64,000 bases of DNA from Gemmatimonadaceae bacterium (GTDB lineage Bacteria > Gemmatimonadota > Gemmatimonadetes > Gemmatimonadales > Gemmatimonadaceae), in contig JANYHT010000004.1 in the NCBI GenBank assembly GCA_025358925.1, forward strand, positions 1 to 64,000. The letters run 5' to 3'. Below are positions 55,419-64,000 of the stretch, in pieces. The position numbers and the translations under genes are program-made. Each line of letters opens with the position of its first letter. Position 1 is the first letter of the stretch. The notes under the pieces are model-generated. The model searched no databases. It was not told the origin of the DNA and saw only the letters and a list, made by a program, of their open reading frames with translations.

Positions 55419-56396
55419 TCAGATTTCCCAGTTGGACAGGATCATGCCGTTCGTGGGCACGACGTCCATCCACCCGTGCGCGCTCATGCGTAGATCGGTC
55501 CAGCGCACACGGGCGCCAAGTCGCACCAACAGCCGATACGCATCGGTGTAGTCGCCTTGCAATCGAATGGCGAGACGACGCATGCCGAGGCGTTTGGTAA
55601 AGTCGGTGAGCGCACCGATCATGGGCGCAAGGTCGTCGCGCGACGCGAGCACCAGCTTCAACACACGCAACTCGTCGCGCGTGCGTCCTTCCACGAGCGA
55701 CACGGAATGACAAAGCGCAAAACCAATTGGAGCATCGACCGAGCCGAGTAGCACCGTATCGCCGAGCGCCATTCGATCTGTAAGCTCAAGTTCACGCGTG
55801 TAGTCGTAGCCGGGCATGACGCGTTCGGTGAGCGCCTTGCACTGTGCCATAGCCACTGCACGCTGGGGCCCGGGCAATCGCGAGAGCAACAACGGCGGGT
55901 GATCACCGGCATTCGCTTCCAGTGTGAGCGTGACGGTCATGTGTCCGGGCACGAATCCGAGATTCGAATAGAAACCGATGTTGTCCATCGTCCTTGGCAT
56001 GGTTTCCAAACCAATCACGCGCGCCTCGTTGCGACGCAGCCAGCTCATACCGTTTTGCACAATAATCTTGCCCAGTCCCATGCCCTGTTGATCGGGACGC
56101 ACGCAGAGCGGACCCATCCAGCCTTCGGTGCCCGAATGATGCACAATATTGAATGCTATAATGCGACCGCGTTCGTCGCGCCAACAAAGCGCACCATCAC
56201 CCGCATCTTCGATGGCATAGCGCCACACAGCGGGATTCAGCGCCGGCACACGCACACCAGTAAGTCCATCGCGCCGATACCGTTCCGTAAACGCCTCCGT
56301 GAACACTTCGTTCAGCGCGTCGATATCCGCCGTGGTTGCCGCGAATGGCCCCTCCACCGGGCGCGTCTTGCTCCACACTCTCGGCGTGACGGTCAT
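55419..56396 (-). CDS. GNAT acetyltransferase, two-domain
   Basis: The 325-residue protein has a complete N-terminal GNAT domain: acetyl-CoA site LCVRPDQQGMGLGKIIVQNG (the Q/RxxGxG motif) and NIGFYSNLGFVPGHMTV. A second GNAT-like half (about residues 175-310, with YTDAYRLLVRLGARVRW) lacks a clear CoA loop. Such tandem proteins acetylate amines or protein N-termini; the substrate is unknown. Its start overlaps the stop of the Rad50-like gene (ATGA), so it belongs to the end-resection cluster, perhaps only by transcription. Confidence 0.85.
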   Translation of the reverse strand: MTVTPRVWSKTRPVEGPFAATTADIDALNEVFTEAFTERYRRDGLTGVRVPALNPAVWRYAIEDAGDGALCWRDERGRIIAFNIVHHSGTEGWMGPLCVRPDQQGMGLGKIIVQNGMSWLRRNEARVIGLETMPRTMDNIGFYSNLGFVPGHMTVTLTLEANAGDHPPLLLSRLPGPQRAVAMAQCKALTERVMPGYDYTRELELTDRMALGDTVLLGSVDAPIGFALCHSVSLVEGRTRDELRVLKLVLASRDDLAPMIGALTDFTKRLGMRRLAIRLQGDYTDAYRLLVRLGARVRWTDLRMSAHGWMDVVPTNGMILSNWEI

Positions 56397-58831
56397 ACGA
56401 CGCTTACCAAGTCGTCGTCCGGCACGGCGGTAAGTTGACCAGCACTCACCGAACTCGTTCCGCGCTCTTCATCAAAGCGCACAACAAGCACGCGATCAAG
56501 ACCTTCGCGCACTTGTTCGATATGCGTGATAACAATGACCTGCTCAAAACGATCATTCAGTCGCCGTAATAGTTCCACCACGTTTCCGCGCCGCGTGTCG
56601 TCGAGTGAACCAAACACTTCATCAAGAATGAGCAGGGAAAATGCCTGTCCCGCACGTTCCGCAATCATCTGCGAGATCGCCAGTCGGAGCACCAGATTGC
56701 ATAGGTCTTCTTCGCCACCCGAGATCACTGGTTTCGGAAGTCCGTCCTCAAGCACGAGCAAATTGTACTCCTCGTCAAACTCAAGCGCGGCGTAGCGACC
56801 GTCCGTCAGTATGTCGAGGAAACGGCTCGCAATCTCCGCGAGTTCCGGACGCAGCTGAAAATTGAGGTCGGTGCGAAGATCCGTAAATGCACGATCGAGT
56901 TCGTCGTGCATCCGCTTGTCGGTTTCGAGTAGATCGAGCGTGTCTTGCAGACGTGCGAGTTCTCGGCGTCCACGCTCGGCAGACTCCAATTCCCCACGGG
57001 CGCGGTCTGCCTCAGCCGTCGCACTGAGGGCCTCGAGTTCCGCGCGACGCGCGTCAACCGCGGCGCGATCGTGTGCATCCCGCACCGCCGCGAACTTGCC
57101 GTCATCCATACGCAGCGATCCGTGTTGCCTGTCCGCGCCGACGACGCGTTGCCGCGCCATCTCGCACAACAGTGCGACGCGCGCATATTCCGCGCGCGTT
57201 GGCAGCTCGCGCTCGACCAATCCACCCAAGCGTGCGGCACGTGACTGCGTTTCCGCGAGATGGGCAACGTCGATGCGCAATGCCGCGTGGCGCACCGCAT
57301 CATAGCCCGTCGGCAATGCCGTGAGTGAGACGCGCGCGTGCTCCAACCGCGTCGCCGCTTGCGTACGTTGCGCGTTCACTGTCGCCAATTCCGCAATGGC
57401 CGCTTGAATGCGCATCAGTCGCCGCTCCGTGGCTGTGACTTCTTGCTGCGCGCTCCGTCGTTGTTCGTCAAGCGCGTCCACCTGCTCATGCGGCTTCGCC
57501 AACTGCTCCACCCGCTGACGATAATAATTACCGTCAATGCGCACCGTTTCCACTTGCTCGGTGAGTAAGTCCAGCACGGTGCGATACGACGCACCCAACG
57601 GTCGGCCGCAAGCTGGACACGGACTCTCTTCACCGAGTCCTTCGAGCGTTTCGCGCTGCAGCACCAGCTCCGAATATTGCGCGCGGAGTGCTTCCAGTCG
57701 AGTTTCCGCCTCTTGCTTGTCACGCACCCACGCCGTCCGCTCAACGTCCAACGACTGCTCAATCTTGGCAAATGTCGCACGCGACGCGGCGAGCTGGTGC
57801 TGCGTTTCTATTTCGAGCGTTGGCGCCGTTTCGAGTCGGGCGGCGCGTTCGGAAAGTTTGGCATCTTCTTCCGCAAGCCCACGCACGCGTTCGAGCAGCG
57901 CCTGTCGTATCGCTTCCGCTTCGCCGAGCGAATCTAACGCGACGAGCGCGGCGCGCATGGACGGCAGCGGAACAAGCGCGTGCGTGAGCGGCGCCAGTTC
58001 ACGCTGTGCGGTTTCAATCGCCTCCAGGTCATGTTCCAGTCGCTCGATATCGCGTGCGTGCGCAAGAGCTTCATTTTCCGCGATGCGCAATTCCGCCAGC
58101 AACTGTTGCGCACGCTCACGCTCCACCTGTGCATCCACCCAGCGCGGAGCAAGCTCGGCCAGCCGCGTGGCCGTGGATGCGCGCGCGAGTTCTGTCTCCG
58201 TCGCGCGCGTACGTGCGACCGCGAGTCGTGCTTCGGTCTCCGAAACCATCCGCCACACCGCGTCGCTATCGGCCATCCCCTGTTTCAAGCCATTAATTTC
58301 GGCCAACAGGGCACGCCGCCGTTCGCGCACTAATTCTTGCGCTCCGCTGATGCGATCATAGCCAAGGACTCGCGAAAGGAACCGCGCACGCTCGGCGGCA
58401 CCGAGCGCTTTCATGACGTCAAGCTCTTTCTGTTCCGTAAAGTACGTATGAAAGAACTCGACCCGCGTCATGCCTAATCGACGTTGCAGCAGCTCGGTGA
58501 CACCCGTGATCGTGTTGGCAATCGGTATCTCGCTGCCATCGAGGAAACATTCGGCGGAGTTGAGACCGCGCTTGACGCGATAGCGATGCCCCGCGAGTTC
58601 AAACTCGAGTTCAACACGCACGATCGCACGTACTTCGGCGCGTGAAAATCGAATGGAGTCGCGCTTACCGCGCGCCGCCGGGTTTCCATACAATGCCCAG
58701 GCGATCGCTTCGAGCAGCGTGGACTTACCGGAGCCATTTGGTCCGATAATGCCCGTGAGGCCGCGCTCAAACGTGATGCGCGTATCCACGTGCTGTCGAA
58801 AGTTTTGCAGTCGTAACGAAAGCAGTCGCAT
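56393..58831 (-). CDS. sbcC: Rad50/SbcC-type ATPase
   Basis: An SMC-like DNA repair ATPase, 812 residues, nearer in size to archaeal Rad50 than to 1040-residue E. coli SbcC. The N-terminal half-site is LTGIIGPNGSGKSTLLEAIA. Long coiled coils flank the zinc hook SPCPACGRPLGAS (about residue 405). The C-terminal half holds VISGGEEDLCNLVLRLAISQ and Walker B SLLILDEVFGSLDDTRRGNV, ending with FEQVIVITHIEQVREGLDRV. With the Mre11-like nuclease one base upstream it should form the end-processing complex. Confidence 0.94.
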   Translation of the reverse strand: MRLLSLRLQNFRQHVDTRITFERGLTGIIGPNGSGKSTLLEAIAWALYGNPAARGKRDSIRFSRAEVRAIVRVELEFELAGHRYRVKRGLNSAECFLDGSEIPIANTITGVTELLQRRLGMTRVEFFHTYFTEQKELDVMKALGAAERARFLSRVLGYDRISGAQELVRERRRALLAEINGLKQGMADSDAVWRMVSETEARLAVARTRATETELARASTATRLAELAPRWVDAQVERERAQQLLAELRIAENEALAHARDIERLEHDLEAIETAQRELAPLTHALVPLPSMRAALVALDSLGEAEAIRQALLERVRGLAEEDAKLSERAARLETAPTLEIETQHQLAASRATFAKIEQSLDVERTAWVRDKQEAETRLEALRAQYSELVLQRETLEGLGEESPCPACGRPLGASYRTVLDLLTEQVETVRIDGNYYRQRVEQLAKPHEQVDALDEQRRSAQQEVTATERRLMRIQAAIAELATVNAQRTQAATRLEHARVSLTALPTGYDAVRHAALRIDVAHLAETQSRAARLGGLVERELPTRAEYARVALLCEMARQRVVGADRQHGSLRMDDGKFAAVRDAHDRAAVDARRAELEALSATAEADRARGELESAERGRRELARLQDTLDLLETDKRMHDELDRAFTDLRTDLNFQLRPELAEIASRFLDILTDGRYAALEFDEEYNLLVLEDGLPKPVISGGEEDLCNLVLRLAISQMIAERAGQAFSLLILDEVFGSLDDTRRGNVVELLRRLNDRFEQVIVITHIEQVREGLDRVLVVRFDEERGTSSVSAGQLTAVPDDDLVSVV

Positions 58832-58832
58832 C

Positions 58833-60029
58833 TTAGTTCACCAACACCGGCATTGCGGCGGCCGCTGCGTCTTCGGCCTGCTGCAAGTAGCGAAGGCCCA
58901 ACGTAACGAACACTTCGCGATCAAGCCCTGGTTGCAGCGCGCGCTCCTGCAATCGCTCCGCAACAATTTCTGGTAGTGTGGCCGGACGACCAGGTGCACC
59001 GTCACCACGCTTGCGTTGCGACAAGGTGTCGGGGCGGCGCGTATCGAGATGAAAGTGCATCGCACGCTTTCGGTATTCGCGAATGGCGACGTGATCAAGC
59101 TCTCGCACCGTGTGACGCGCGACATTACGAACAAGTAGACGCACGACTCGATCATCGATGCCGCCCAGGGCACTCGCGATACGCGCGTGCAACGCGCTAT
59201 CGAGTTCCGTGGCTCCCATGCCGTTTGCATCTATTGGTTCGAGGTCGAGTAACGACCGCGCTGGAGCGACGGGGTGAAACCGATGCGTCTGCGTGCGCAA
59301 ATTTTGTTCGATAAAACCCTTGCCCGGTATGCTACGCTCACGCTGTTCGTGCAGTTCGCCCCACGGATTGGAACTCGTATAGTCGAGCGAGCCACTGTAA
59401 TACGCGTGCGGCGCCACTTCGCGATACACGTGATAGTGTCCCAGTGCGATGTAACTCCATCGTTCAGCGTGCAATTCTTCGGTGCGTATTTCAATGGCCG
59501 CGCGATCCAACGGACCGGCATGCGCGGGCAACATTCCCGCTATGGTTCCATGCAGCAGCAGCACGGTGTGCTCGAATCCATCCGGCGGCTGGAGTGGCGG
59601 ACGATCAATTCCCGGCAGATCAGGCACCGCAAGCACCGCAAGGGATCGTGTTGGAAACGTAAATAGTTCTGCCTTCGCGTCAGCAACGTAGACGCCGAGT
59701 TCTCGAAAGAGGCGCAAGATGCACCCCGTCTCCGACGTGCGCGGCGCATCGTGATTGCCCGCCACCATGACGATCGGCGTTTCCGGCAACTGATCTCGAA
59801 GCCGCGAGAAATTCCGAAATGCATGCAGGATGGCAGGGTTGGAAGGACGTACGGAGTGAAACACATCGCCGCCGACAACAATGACGTCGGGTTCAAGCGC
59901 GATAATTTGATCGACGGCCCGATTGAACGTGCCCGCAACATCAGCTTCGCGCTGATTGATGCCGGTCGGCGTGAGCCGCTGATATTGCCGAAAGCCAAGA
60001 TGAAGGTCGGCGAGATGAACAAGACGCAT
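58833..60029 (-). CDS. sbcD: Mre11/SbcD-type nuclease
   Basis: A calcineurin-like phosphoesterase with the five Mre11 motifs: LVHLADLHLGFRQ, VDQIIALEPDVIVVGGDVFH, MVAGNHDAPRTS, TVLLLHGTIAG and YIALGHYHVYREV. The 398-residue chain continues with a capping domain (SGSLDYTSSNPWGELHEQRE) and a C-terminal helical part that would bind the Rad50 coiled coil. Manganese-dependent nuclease activity on DNA ends is expected. It lies one base before the Rad50 gene and 34 bases after a gene for a secreted protein that separates it from herA. Confidence 0.95.
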   Translation of the reverse strand: MRLVHLADLHLGFRQYQRLTPTGINQREADVAGTFNRAVDQIIALEPDVIVVGGDVFHSVRPSNPAILHAFRNFSRLRDQLPETPIVMVAGNHDAPRTSETGCILRLFRELGVYVADAKAELFTFPTRSLAVLAVPDLPGIDRPPLQPPDGFEHTVLLLHGTIAGMLPAHAGPLDRAAIEIRTEELHAERWSYIALGHYHVYREVAPHAYYSGSLDYTSSNPWGELHEQRERSIPGKGFIEQNLRTQTHRFHPVAPARSLLDLEPIDANGMGATELDSALHARIASALGGIDDRVVRLLVRNVARHTVRELDHVAIREYRKRAMHFHLDTRRPDTLSQRKRGDGAPGRPATLPEIVAERLQERALQPGLDREVFVTLGLRYLQQAEDAAAAAMPVLVN

Positions 60030-60063
60030 GCACGAACTTTAGTCTCGGTCCAACGAAGCAGCG

Positions 60064-61041
60064 CTAATGCACGCGAACGCGTTGTACGATGCGAATATCA
60101 AGGAGCATTGGGATGGACGTACCGGCCGGTCCCGGCGATACCTCGGACTGCACGTTGATGTCGGTTCGCGCGTCCATAATCCAAGCACGGTCACGATCAA
60201 CGAGCAAGGTGCCGCGCATGGTGCCTGCCGTAACAACGCGCGTACCCGCCGGTAACTCTCGCGCCGCCCCGTCGCGTCGCAGGGTGCCGAGCATCGAAAT
60301 CCATGCGTTGCGCCCAGCGTGTGTGAGCGAATCCAACCGGAACTGCGCGCGCACCACGCCGTCTGCGCGAAATCCGCTCACCGGCAGCGATGGCAAGAGA
60401 ATGTCGCGTTCCCACCGGTCTCCCACGCGCACTGCGGCATCTGGCAGCATGCCGGGCATGGACGCCAGCGTGGCGCCCAGTTCCATCGCGCCCGGCGGTG
60501 GATCGTTGACTCGCATGGTACCATCGGGCGTCACGCGAACGCGTATCTGTCGCCCTTCGAGTGGCAACGGCATGGCCTGCGGCAGTCCAGCGTCTGGTCC
60601 ACTGCCGGCCCACATGGCCATGGAGTCGGTGGTGGCAAGCAGTGTGGTAGCGGAAAGATCGCTGGCTTCCACGAACGAGTGTGCATACAGTAGCACGCGC
60701 GTAATGCGGAGCGATGCGCGCGCACGACGTGGTCCGTAGTCGGGGCTGCGTGGGGCTGGTGCTGAGCGCGCGCGATTGAGTACATCGGGACCTTGTGGCG
60801 ACGGCGAGTTACCTTGGCGGCCGCTCATCTCAATGGACTGCTCCATCTGTAAATGCAGCGTATCGCCAACACGAGGACGTACGATGAGCGTGACGGCGTC
60901 GAGTTTTGGTGCTGCATTTCGCGCCGACAAGACACGAGTGGAGACAACACCGGTGGTCTGCGCGCGCAGCGCCGTACTACGCGCGCCGCTCAGCACCACC
61001 AGCGAAAACACGACGACAAATCGCGAGGTCGACTGCAGCAT
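60064..61041 (-). CDS. Secreted protein of unknown function within the repair cluster
   Basis: The ATG at 61041 gives 325 residues with a signal peptide (FVVVFSLVVLSGARSTALRA). The mature part begins DAVTLIVRPRVGDTLHLQME and has repeated beta segments such as QIRVRVTPDGTMRVNDPPPG and VRVGDRWERDILLPSLPVSG. It ends DIRIVQRVRVH. The PEGRQIRV-like 'test for product of variance' pattern resembles the DUF6263-type secreted proteins, but I cannot assign it firmly. It lies nine bases after herA and 34 before the Mre11 gene, an unexpected place for an exported protein. Confidence 0.6.
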   Translation of the reverse strand: MLQSTSRFVVVFSLVVLSGARSTALRAQTTGVVSTRVLSARNAAPKLDAVTLIVRPRVGDTLHLQMEQSIEMSGRQGNSPSPQGPDVLNRARSAPAPRSPDYGPRRARASLRITRVLLYAHSFVEASDLSATTLLATTDSMAMWAGSGPDAGLPQAMPLPLEGRQIRVRVTPDGTMRVNDPPPGAMELGATLASMPGMLPDAAVRVGDRWERDILLPSLPVSGFRADGVVRAQFRLDSLTHAGRNAWISMLGTLRRDGAARELPAGTRVVTAGTMRGTLLVDRDRAWIMDARTDINVQSEVSPGPAGTSIPMLLDIRIVQRVRVH

Positions 61042-61050
61042 CACCGGGTA

Positions 61051-63105
61051 TTATCCACCGTATTCATCGGGAGCAAAGGCACGCAAACTGCGCGGCTTGG
61101 GCGCAATCGCTTCGGCGTCAATCGCGCCGGGCCGTGCGCGCTTTCGTAATTCGCGCGCGAATGCGACTTTCACGTTTTCTGGTCGTGTGCGCAACATGGC
61201 GTTACGCGCGGAGAGGACTTCAAATTCGTCGTAGAGTAAAATCGTTTGTTGCACCCAGCCAAGGTCAATACCATCGTCGAGGCGGCGAAGATCCCGCGTC
61301 ACGGCGTTCGCGAGTGATGGCTCGGGTGCCTGCGGAAATCGTTCGACACCTTCACGGCCGCTCATTACCGCCGGCCGCGGAAAGCGCACGAAGACCGGCT
61401 GCGCAAAATGCGGATGCCGCACCATCAATTGCCCTTTGTCAAGCGTTGCCAATCGTGCCTTTACAGCAGGGCTGAGCACTTGGTAGCCGGGAGTCGCGAG
61501 TTCATCGCCATCCATGCGTCCAAACATCGACGTGGCCGCGTTTCCCACCACGCGGCGATGCACTTGGGAACGAAACTGCTGCGCACCGAACAGCACGAGC
61601 CCGAGATAGCGACCGCGCTCTGAGATATCGAGCAACATCTTTCGCACGTACGTGTCGGGACCATCACCCGGTGCATACTTATTGAGCTCGTCGACAAAAA
61701 CGATGAGGTGGTCCACCCCGAGATCGCGTCGCTCCAAATGCTCGCGCAGCTTGGATACCACGCGTGCGAACACAAGATCTTGCGCGTCTTCCTCCGTATT
61801 CGCGACATCCACCACGTACACCGTACGATCGGTGAAGCTCCCGAATGGCAGGTCCGAAACGGCGCCATCGTCGGTCACGAGCCCCGCGCAACGCGTGGAT
61901 AAATTCGACAAACGATTTCGCACTTTTCGAATCGTGGCCGCATGATGCGTGCGCCATGTGTCGCCATTCGAATCTTCAACCTTGCGTAATACTTCGCGAA
62001 ACCACGCGTCGAGATCGGCAAACGAAAGGACGCGATGCACCCGTGAAAACCCCGCCTCTGCAAAATCCCGCGCTACAACACGTTCGCGAATGAAATCAAT
62101 CAACGCATCGGCTTTCGCATCAAGATCGTCCTTGTTCAACAAGACGTCCGCAAACTGCAATACTTCACTTAGCCCCCAAGTGAGCGGTTCGACATTGCCG
62201 ACGAGATCGGGGTGCGAACGCAACGTGTTGAGCGCCAGCCCACGCGGCGTATACGGGGCGTAGTACTTCACATCGCGAAACGGTTCCGCGGGGACATCCA
62301 ACAGTTCGTAAATCTCGCGATCTGCATCTTCGATTCGTCCCGGCTGATCGAGAAAGCACAAGTCCGGACCTTTCACATTGAAGCAAACGGCAGCGACCGA
62401 TCCGCGATGTGCAGGGAAGTGCGCGAAGATGGACTGCAACACCCATTCGATCGCGCTCGTTTTCGTTGCGAGGCCCGACACACCGGAAATATTCAAGTGC
62501 GCCGCTTCGGGCCCCACCAGAAAGTCAGCGTCCAGATAAATCGGCGAACGCATGCCTCCAGCGCGATACATACCAATCGGAATCCCAGTGCTTTTTTCTC
62601 CGCCGAGATATCCATCCATGCGCAACGCGACCGCAACATCCGCGTCGTCCGCGAGAAAAACGGTCCCGAGTGGCACAGGTTGCAGCGGTTCTTCGGGAAT
62701 ATGACGTAAGACGTGCGCCGTGTAGAGTCGAATTTCGGTGCGATCAGTGGCTGCGAATGCGCCGCCTTCTGGTCGACCATCGTGACCCAGCACATCGTGA
62801 AGCGGCGACTGTAAATCGGAGTAACTGAAGCCCTCCATAACCACGCCAAATACGCGCGGAACGACGAGGCCGACAGGCACGGTGCCTTCAACGCGGACGA
62901 TGGTGCCGATGCCAATCGGGGCATCAAGCGCGGTCCAGAAATGGAATTCGTGCGTGGTGTTGGGTTTGCGCTCGGTCGCAACGACGCGACCAATCGGATC
63001 ACGCAACACATCGGACGTTGGTGTCAGAATCACAGGAGACCGAGAGAGACGGTGAACGGAAAGCAAACGCTCATGAACCAACGAGCGCTTTGAGATACGA
63101 CTCAC
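61051..63105 (-). CDS. herA: HerA-type DNA translocase ATPase
   Basis: HerA is a hexameric FtsK/VirB4-like ATPase that drives NurA on DNA ends. The 684-residue protein has an N-terminal HAS-barrel-like domain (PIGIGTIVRVEGTVPVGLVV). A P-loop follows, reading NISGVSGLATKTSAIEW, with Lys-Thr-Ser but without the usual Gly before Lys. Walker B is HLIVFVDELNKYAPGDGPD, and the later RGRYLGLVLFGAQQFRSQVH matches the HerA arginine region. The GTG at 63105 overlaps nurA by 35 bases; a TTG at 63066, just past the nurA stop, is another possible start. Confidence 0.88.
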   Translation of the reverse strand: MSRISKRSLVHERLLSVHRLSRSPVILTPTSDVLRDPIGRVVATERKPNTTHEFHFWTALDAPIGIGTIVRVEGTVPVGLVVPRVFGVVMEGFSYSDLQSPLHDVLGHDGRPEGGAFAATDRTEIRLYTAHVLRHIPEEPLQPVPLGTVFLADDADVAVALRMDGYLGGEKSTGIPIGMYRAGGMRSPIYLDADFLVGPEAAHLNISGVSGLATKTSAIEWVLQSIFAHFPAHRGSVAAVCFNVKGPDLCFLDQPGRIEDADREIYELLDVPAEPFRDVKYYAPYTPRGLALNTLRSHPDLVGNVEPLTWGLSEVLQFADVLLNKDDLDAKADALIDFIRERVVARDFAEAGFSRVHRVLSFADLDAWFREVLRKVEDSNGDTWRTHHAATIRKVRNRLSNLSTRCAGLVTDDGAVSDLPFGSFTDRTVYVVDVANTEEDAQDLVFARVVSKLREHLERRDLGVDHLIVFVDELNKYAPGDGPDTYVRKMLLDISERGRYLGLVLFGAQQFRSQVHRRVVGNAATSMFGRMDGDELATPGYQVLSPAVKARLATLDKGQLMVRHPHFAQPVFVRFPRPAVMSGREGVERFPQAPEPSLANAVTRDLRRLDDGIDLGWVQQTILLYDEFEVLSARNAMLRTRPENVKVAFARELRKRARPGAIDAEAIAPKPRSLRAFAPDEYGG

Positions 63106-64000
63106 AGGCGTACACGCCGTACGTCAGCGTATCCCATCGCGGATCCGGAAGCGAGAGCGGACGACGCTCGGCGAGAATCCACGACGAGAGCTGCGTGGCC
63201 TGCGCGCCGATAGCGTCGCGTGTGTGATCGTCAAGGTGCAGCGCGTCGCGCACCGCATTGGATGGCGCGACTTCCACGCGGACGAGTCCATGCAGCGGGT
63301 CACCGCTCGCCGTCTCTCGTAAACGCAAATACCAACTGACCACGGCACGACGCCCGCGGTGCACCACCAAAAATGTCGGCGACCGTTCCGCTTCGCGCAG
63401 CATCAACACGGCGCGCACAAGGGCAGGCGTCCCATACAACGTGCGATGTGATTTCACGACGCCGAATGCCGTGGCGTGTGCGTCGACGGCCGCGTTACCG
63501 GCAATGCCGCCATCAATCCAAAGCCATCGCTGTTCGCGACGACACCAGTCGGCCGCGAGGGCGCGTTCCATACGGTCACGTTCATTGGCTATCTGCACGA
63601 GCGCATGGGCACGAACGGCCATCGGGTGCGTGAGCGTCGCTTCAGCCAACGTATCCTCGGCGACATCGCGCAACGGCAAACCCGACGCCTCCAACTGCGC
63701 CCAAGTGTCGTCTCCAAGACCTGCGCGCGACGCGTAGAGTGCGTGGTGCACACGCGGAGCATCCCAGGTGTCCAGCCGACGCTGTTCTCGCTGTCGGATC
63801 ACCGCCGCCACACTGCCAAACACGAGTGGCGATCCACGTACATGCCCAACAACGCGACTGCGCTGAATACCGTCGAGAAACGCGGCGACCGTGGGTGTAC
63901 TCGCGGGTGCCACACGTCGCGCGCCCGGTGGCTCAACCGCATCGCACGCGGAAACGGAGGGTGGGTCGCTGCGCAGTTGTGCGCGCTCTAAGGTTGGTGC
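63071..64000 (-). CDS. nurA: NurA-domain nuclease (5' end outside window)
   Basis: The frame is open from the right edge to the stop at 63071, 309 visible residues, so the true start is outside; an internal GTG at 63913 is not needed as a start. NurA features are the metal-site region VAAFLDGIQRSRVVGHVRG and WLWIDGGIAGNAAVDAHATA followed by FGVVKSHRTLYG. The C terminus YGVYACESYLKALVGS fits less clearly. NurA is a 5'-3' exonuclease and endonuclease that works with HerA, whose gene overlaps this one by 35 bases. The pairing strengthens both assignments. Confidence 0.78.
   Translation of the reverse strand, partial: APTLERAQLRSDPPSVSACDAVEPPGARRVAPASTPTVAAFLDGIQRSRVVGHVRGSPLVFGSVAAVIRQREQRRLDTWDAPRVHHALYASRAGLGDDTWAQLEASGLPLRDVAEDTLAEATLTHPMAVRAHALVQIANERDRMERALAADWCRREQRWLWIDGGIAGNAAVDAHATAFGVVKSHRTLYGTPALVRAVLMLREAERSPTFLVVHRGRRAVVSWYLRLRETASGDPLHGLVRVEVAPSNAVRDALHLDDHTRDAIGAQATQLSSWILAERRPLSLPDPRWDTLTYGVYACESYLKALVGS

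Follow-up and report, generated by a model that had tools for sequence, protein, structure and literature searches.

In Sulfolobus acidocaldarius, the rad50, mre11, nurA and herA genes are clustered and co-transcribed (PMC2288612). Bacterial HerA and NurA are less than 20% identical to the archaeal proteins, and a 2023 study described the bacterial NurA-HerA pair as restricted to few bacteria such as Deinococcus-Thermus (PMC9960219). The nuclease activity of the D. radiodurans NurA (drNurA) requires K201, R309 and D53 (PMC9960219). In another bacterium, Oceanithermus profundus, a nurA-hepA-sbcD-sbcC cluster has been reported, in which sbcD and sbcC lie downstream of the herA homologue (PMC5448004). 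Here we compare with these systems a locus at one end of a 64,000-nucleotide stretch of DNA (“the window”) from a member of the Gemmatimonadaceae, the source genome being a 4.0-Mb assembly of 72 contigs with 96% completeness. Our reading, to which we assign a probability of roughly 85%, is that the locus is a bacterial-type operon on the chromosome for resecting the ends of DNA double-strand breaks, and that it has been kept by descent in Gemmatimonadota.

All members of the series lie on the minus strand, in the transcription order nurA, herA, a gene for a secreted protein, mre11/sbcD, rad50/sbcC and a GNAT gene (Table 1). An earlier note on this DNA had identified NurA, HerA, Mre11/SbcD and Rad50/SbcC genes in a single minus-strand series; profiles, PDB matches and the NurA fold bear out these four calls, and the four genes are indeed co-directional at the positions that it gave. 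It had also proposed to look beyond position 64000 for the start of nurA, whose open reading frame is truncated by the end of the window: on the source contig (G000:C38) the full gene occupies 63071-64120 and encodes 349 amino acids. Upstream of it lies a divergent, unrelated gene. The annotated herA reading frame overlaps nurA; because the conserved sequence begins at approximately residue 38, the true start of herA is probably near 63033. The spacing is 6 bp between herA and the secreted-protein gene, 34 bp between the latter and mre11, and 1 bp between mre11 and rad50, and the gaps across the series range from −4 to about 40 bp. These tiny gaps, together with the overlap between rad50 and the GNAT gene, fit with an operon, and the layout of nurA-herA-mre11-rad50 is as expected of a single one. 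In two families, the GNAT protein (325 amino acids) accompanies the operon, and it remains where nurA-herA has been lost.

Table 1. Features of the minus-strand series in the window.
Feature	Position	Strand	Remarks
nurA (bacterial-type NurA nuclease)	63071..64000	-	C-terminal 309 of 349 aa inside window
herA (bacterial HerA hexameric DNA-translocase ATPase)	61051..63105	-	Walker A K215-T216, Walker B D472-E473
secreted beta-rich protein, signal-like N-terminus, between herA and mre11	60064..61044	-	DUF6263 match sub-threshold
mre11/sbcD (metallophosphoesterase nuclease)	58833..60029	-	PF00149, TIGR00619, invariant metal ligands
rad50/sbcC (ABC-type ATPase, zinc-hook CPxC)	56393..58831	-	PF13476, SMC_N, SbcC_Walker_B
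GNAT acetyltransferase, conserved downstream neighbor of rad50	55419..56396	-	4 bp overlap with rad50 stop

An 11-sequence HerA profile was compared with the PDB. It matched D. radiodurans HerA (PDB 7f6d, chain 7f6d_B) at E=1e-53 over most of the length of the protein, spanning both the N-terminal (HAS-barrel) and the RecA-like ATPase regions. No archaeal HerA chain appeared at E<=1 in this search, the sole other match (E=0.75) being unrelated, and the archaeal HerA model NF040937 (NCBIfam) scored 12.7 bits, below its cut-off of 800. The Walker A K-T and Walker B D-E residues listed in Table 1 were invariant in the alignment of homologues; with homology to the D. radiodurans protein in both regions, they mark the product as a HerA of bacterial type. 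The Walker A region reads GVSGLATKTS. The notion that this P-loop is aberrant was dropped: D. radiodurans HerA carries the same unusual form.

The identity of NurA was settled by a wider profile and a predicted fold, after searches with the single protein had failed. That protein had no match in Pfam, NCBIfam, PADLOC or PHROGs; a six-sequence profile found nothing in the PDB, and a search of the whole genome with PF09376 recovered no NurA. In three divergent relatives, which belong to other families of Gemmatimonadota, PF09376 was the only Pfam match (E=0.002 to 0.2), with scores of 11.5-18.5 bits that fall below the gathering score of 21. A 21-sequence family profile, on the other hand, matched D. 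radiodurans NurA (7f6d_H) at E=1e-17 and Thermotoga TM1739 (1zup) at E=1.4e-9, and it found no archaeal NurA chain in the PDB at E<=10. An AF2 model (pLDDT 84.5) was made for the relative in the first row of this alignment, L003. Foldseek placed 7f6d_G at the top (E=4.5e-12) and 1zup at E=3.4e-9; 7f6d_G and two 1zup chains were the only matches below E=0.001, and the modeled relative has the RNase H-like fold of NurA. The motifs DG, DG, GVVK and DPRWD are retained, and D83, D203, K223 and R328 (full-length numbering) are conserved. If the solved chain carries a 20-residue tag, a count along the profile-PDB alignment pairs K223 with K201 of drNurA and R328 with R309. The earlier note would have given up its reading if this protein failed to match NurA profiles: the single protein does miss those of Pfam, NCBIfam and PADLOC, but the 21-sequence profile and the fold match NurA. 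From its sequence and modeled fold, the window's nurA product is a NurA of bacterial type, a predicted nuclease and HerA partner.

Mre11/SbcD is a calcineurin-like phosphoesterase (PF00149, 4.6e-11) in which the metal ligands D8, H10, D55, N92, H93, H160, H198 and H200 are invariant among 14 homologues. Among solved chains, those of Thermotoga Mre11 and E. coli SbcD come out nearest to it, but only narrowly so, and the search profile contained divergent relatives. Rad50/SbcC has the split ABC ATPase and zinc hook CxxC of its family, with an invariant P-loop (G30-K36), hook (C405-P-x-C408) and Walker B (D737-E738). Its best PDB chains are Rad50 from M. jannaschii (top) and from Thermotoga, and its best NCBIfam model is archaeal. 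By these comparisons, neither protein points clearly to an archaeal origin. The Rad50 matches do, however, lend something to the idea that the four genes were gained from archaea en bloc by lateral transfer, as the description “archaeal-style” in the earlier note implied; so does the gene content, which equals that of the archaeal rad50-mre11-nurA-herA operon, with the same four functions, just as the note had said (PMC2288612). Yet the structures that HerA and NurA match are bacterial (the D. radiodurans pair and NurA of T. maritima). The operon is found in several bacterial phyla, and in two families it is distributed as expected under vertical inheritance (below). Such a transfer is therefore very improbable, and “archaeal-style” is misleading. 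The length of Rad50 (812 residues), which had been likened to that of the archaeal protein, is not diagnostic: it varies from ~800 to 1117 amino acids among these bacterial operons.

Relatives of the window in public collections came nearly all from Gemmatimonadota. NurA was present in 138 and HerA in 161 of 249 genomes of this phylum. Where HerA could be placed (144 genomes), nurA lay directly upstream of it on the same strand in 99, and mre11 lay no more than 2 kb downstream on the same strand in 107 (50 within 300 bp, 57 more within 2 kb). Because both adjacencies recur in this way, the four-gene series is not a chance arrangement; that the order recurs in relatives had been anticipated. 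The gene order is found across Gemmatimonadaceae and a sister family, with co-directional neighbors and with the secreted-protein gene separating herA from mre11; another, more distant family has nurA elsewhere on the chromosome. Within the window's family, no genome has just one of nurA and herA: of 87 genomes, 71 have both and 16 have neither. Two genomes from the window's genus (G019 and G068) have a locus that is otherwise collinear, with only nurA-herA gone.

A cluster of spacings between herA and mre11 lies at ~0.8-1.1 kb, leaving room for one inserted gene, which encoded a secreted protein wherever the regions were inspected. Both the window's family and a distant one in the same phylum keep this gene next to mre11; it is thus more than the mere interruption for which it had been taken. 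Its product is predicted by AF2 to be beta-rich (pLDDT 75.5). Lipid-transfer and barrel matches of the model (apoB, lipovitellin, LmcA) were weak, with a query TM of about 0.4 or less, and were set aside.

Outside Gemmatimonadota, all four profiles matched side by side in four records, from Nonomuraea, Streptomyces, Chlorohelix and Sphaerospermopsis, representing Actinomycetota, Cyanobacteriota and Chloroflexota. With the reported Oceanithermus profundus cluster (PMC5448004), these show as too strong the generalization that bacterial sbcDC normally occurs by itself, or HerA-NurA at another locus. The order is nurA-herA-sbcD-sbcC in Chlorohelix and Sphaerospermopsis; unlike in the window, it is herA-sbcD-sbcC-nurA in Nonomuraea and Streptomyces. 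The Oceanithermus cluster, likened here by its published description, has the same four genes in a bacterium of another phylum, with the secreted-protein gene unmentioned. Trees of HerA, NurA and Mre11 agreed on two deep groups; these unrooted trees comprised solely bacterial sequences, D. radiodurans figured only in that of HerA, and Chlorohelix sat on long branches. One group is the Gemmatimonadota core lineage, which includes the window, and the other is a Deinococcus/cyanobacterial/actinobacterial lineage with copies from three other Gemmatimonadota families; the four copies from outside the phylum belong to lineages other than the window's. Deinococcus/actinobacterial-type HerA-Mre11-Rad50-NurA operons of varying gene order were seen in those three families (L092:6777-13535, L093:6991-13268, L094:9850-17024), apart from the window's lineage in the three trees. 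The window's pair resembles D. radiodurans NurA-HerA (PDB 7F6D; PMC9960219) in most of the length of HerA, its modified P-loop, the NurA fold and the catalytic K and R; it differs in that NurA is only ~20% identical (by fold alignment), HerA is on a deep separate branch, and the pair has mre11-rad50 and the gene for a secreted protein as neighbors. Judged by sequence, this is a bacterial-type end-resection operon, and its kind is already known; the lineage to which it belongs is deep and poorly recognized.

Could the operon instead serve in anti-phage defense, akin to HerA-nuclease defense pairs, and not in housekeeping repair? PADLOC returned matches at the superfamily level only, namely mad8 for HerA (3e-7) and mad3 and LmuB for Rad50, and these cover just parts of shared ATPase superfamilies. 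Relatives in other phyla are located on plasmids; on one from Streptomyces (L158:1-5947), the four-gene operon adjoins TIGR02680/TIGR02678/DUF2397 genes and an ImmA/IrrE peptidase gene. The TIGR02680/TIGR02678/DUF2397 genes are presumably part of a possibly Wadjet-like defense neighborhood. Within the window's family, however, 71/87 genomes have the locus, which lies in conserved synteny on the chromosome next to folE and PTPS genes, and HerA is ~60-85% identical across the core lineage of the phylum. A defense role is consequently highly unlikely.

We thus return to end resection. The observations behind this reading are the gene identities and catalytic residues, the predicted fold of NurA, the layout and order of the genes, the fact that nurA and herA occur and disappear together, and the agreeing trees. 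By analogy with characterized homologues, from which complex formation, resection polarity, the sequence in which the proteins act and the RecA step are inferred, Mre11-Rad50 would bind and open broken or blocked DNA ends, a HerA hexamer would pump the duplex into a NurA dimer, and NurA would degrade one strand to leave a 3′ tail for RecA. Mutants of herA or nurA in D. radiodurans and Thermus have modest or inconsistent damage sensitivity (PMC9960219; PMC5448004), making the importance of the module in vivo uncertain.

The proposed role would overlap that of RecBCD/AddAB, which is missing from many members of the family. In a tally put together by hand from RecC and PDDEXK_1 searches, RecC or a strong AddAB-type nuclease match was found in 13/16 family genomes without HerA-NurA and in 25/71 with it (Fisher p=0.0015, uncorrected and with relatedness ignored), which suggests that the two kinds of system partly substitute for each other. 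The substitution is not strict, as four genomes of the window's genus have both RecBCD and HerA-NurA. Strict exclusion between HerA-NurA and AddAB was considered and rejected: the phylum-wide association (p=3e-25) is confounded by lineage, and within the family there is none (p=1.0) with strong PDDEXK_1 matches alone, the within-family association emerging only once RecC is added. The window's own genome, a 96% complete draft, yielded neither a PDDEXK_1 match nor RecC. We do not take this as typical, since RecC occurs in all nine other sampled genomes of the genus, and a RecBCD cluster from the genus was confirmed by NCBIfam; the absence may be an assembly gap. The same genome encodes a 966-amino-acid UvrD/PcrA-like helicase fused to a DnaQ-type 3′-5′ exonuclease domain (L137:5197-8097; G000:C12).

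Bacterial NurA-HerA is accordingly the rule in two Gemmatimonadota families, where it is joined to Mre11-Rad50 and its NurA is missed by standard profiles. We offer only as a tentative idea, and one that we hold to be somewhat doubtful, that this operon, with its deep lineage, unrecognized NurA and conserved secreted partner, serves as a main resection machine and has repeatedly substituted for RecBCD/AddAB. The patchy loss of nurA-herA in species with RecBCD or AddAB makes such interchangeability testable and, if the idea is true, the window's family would constitute a natural series on why bacteria use one machine or the other.
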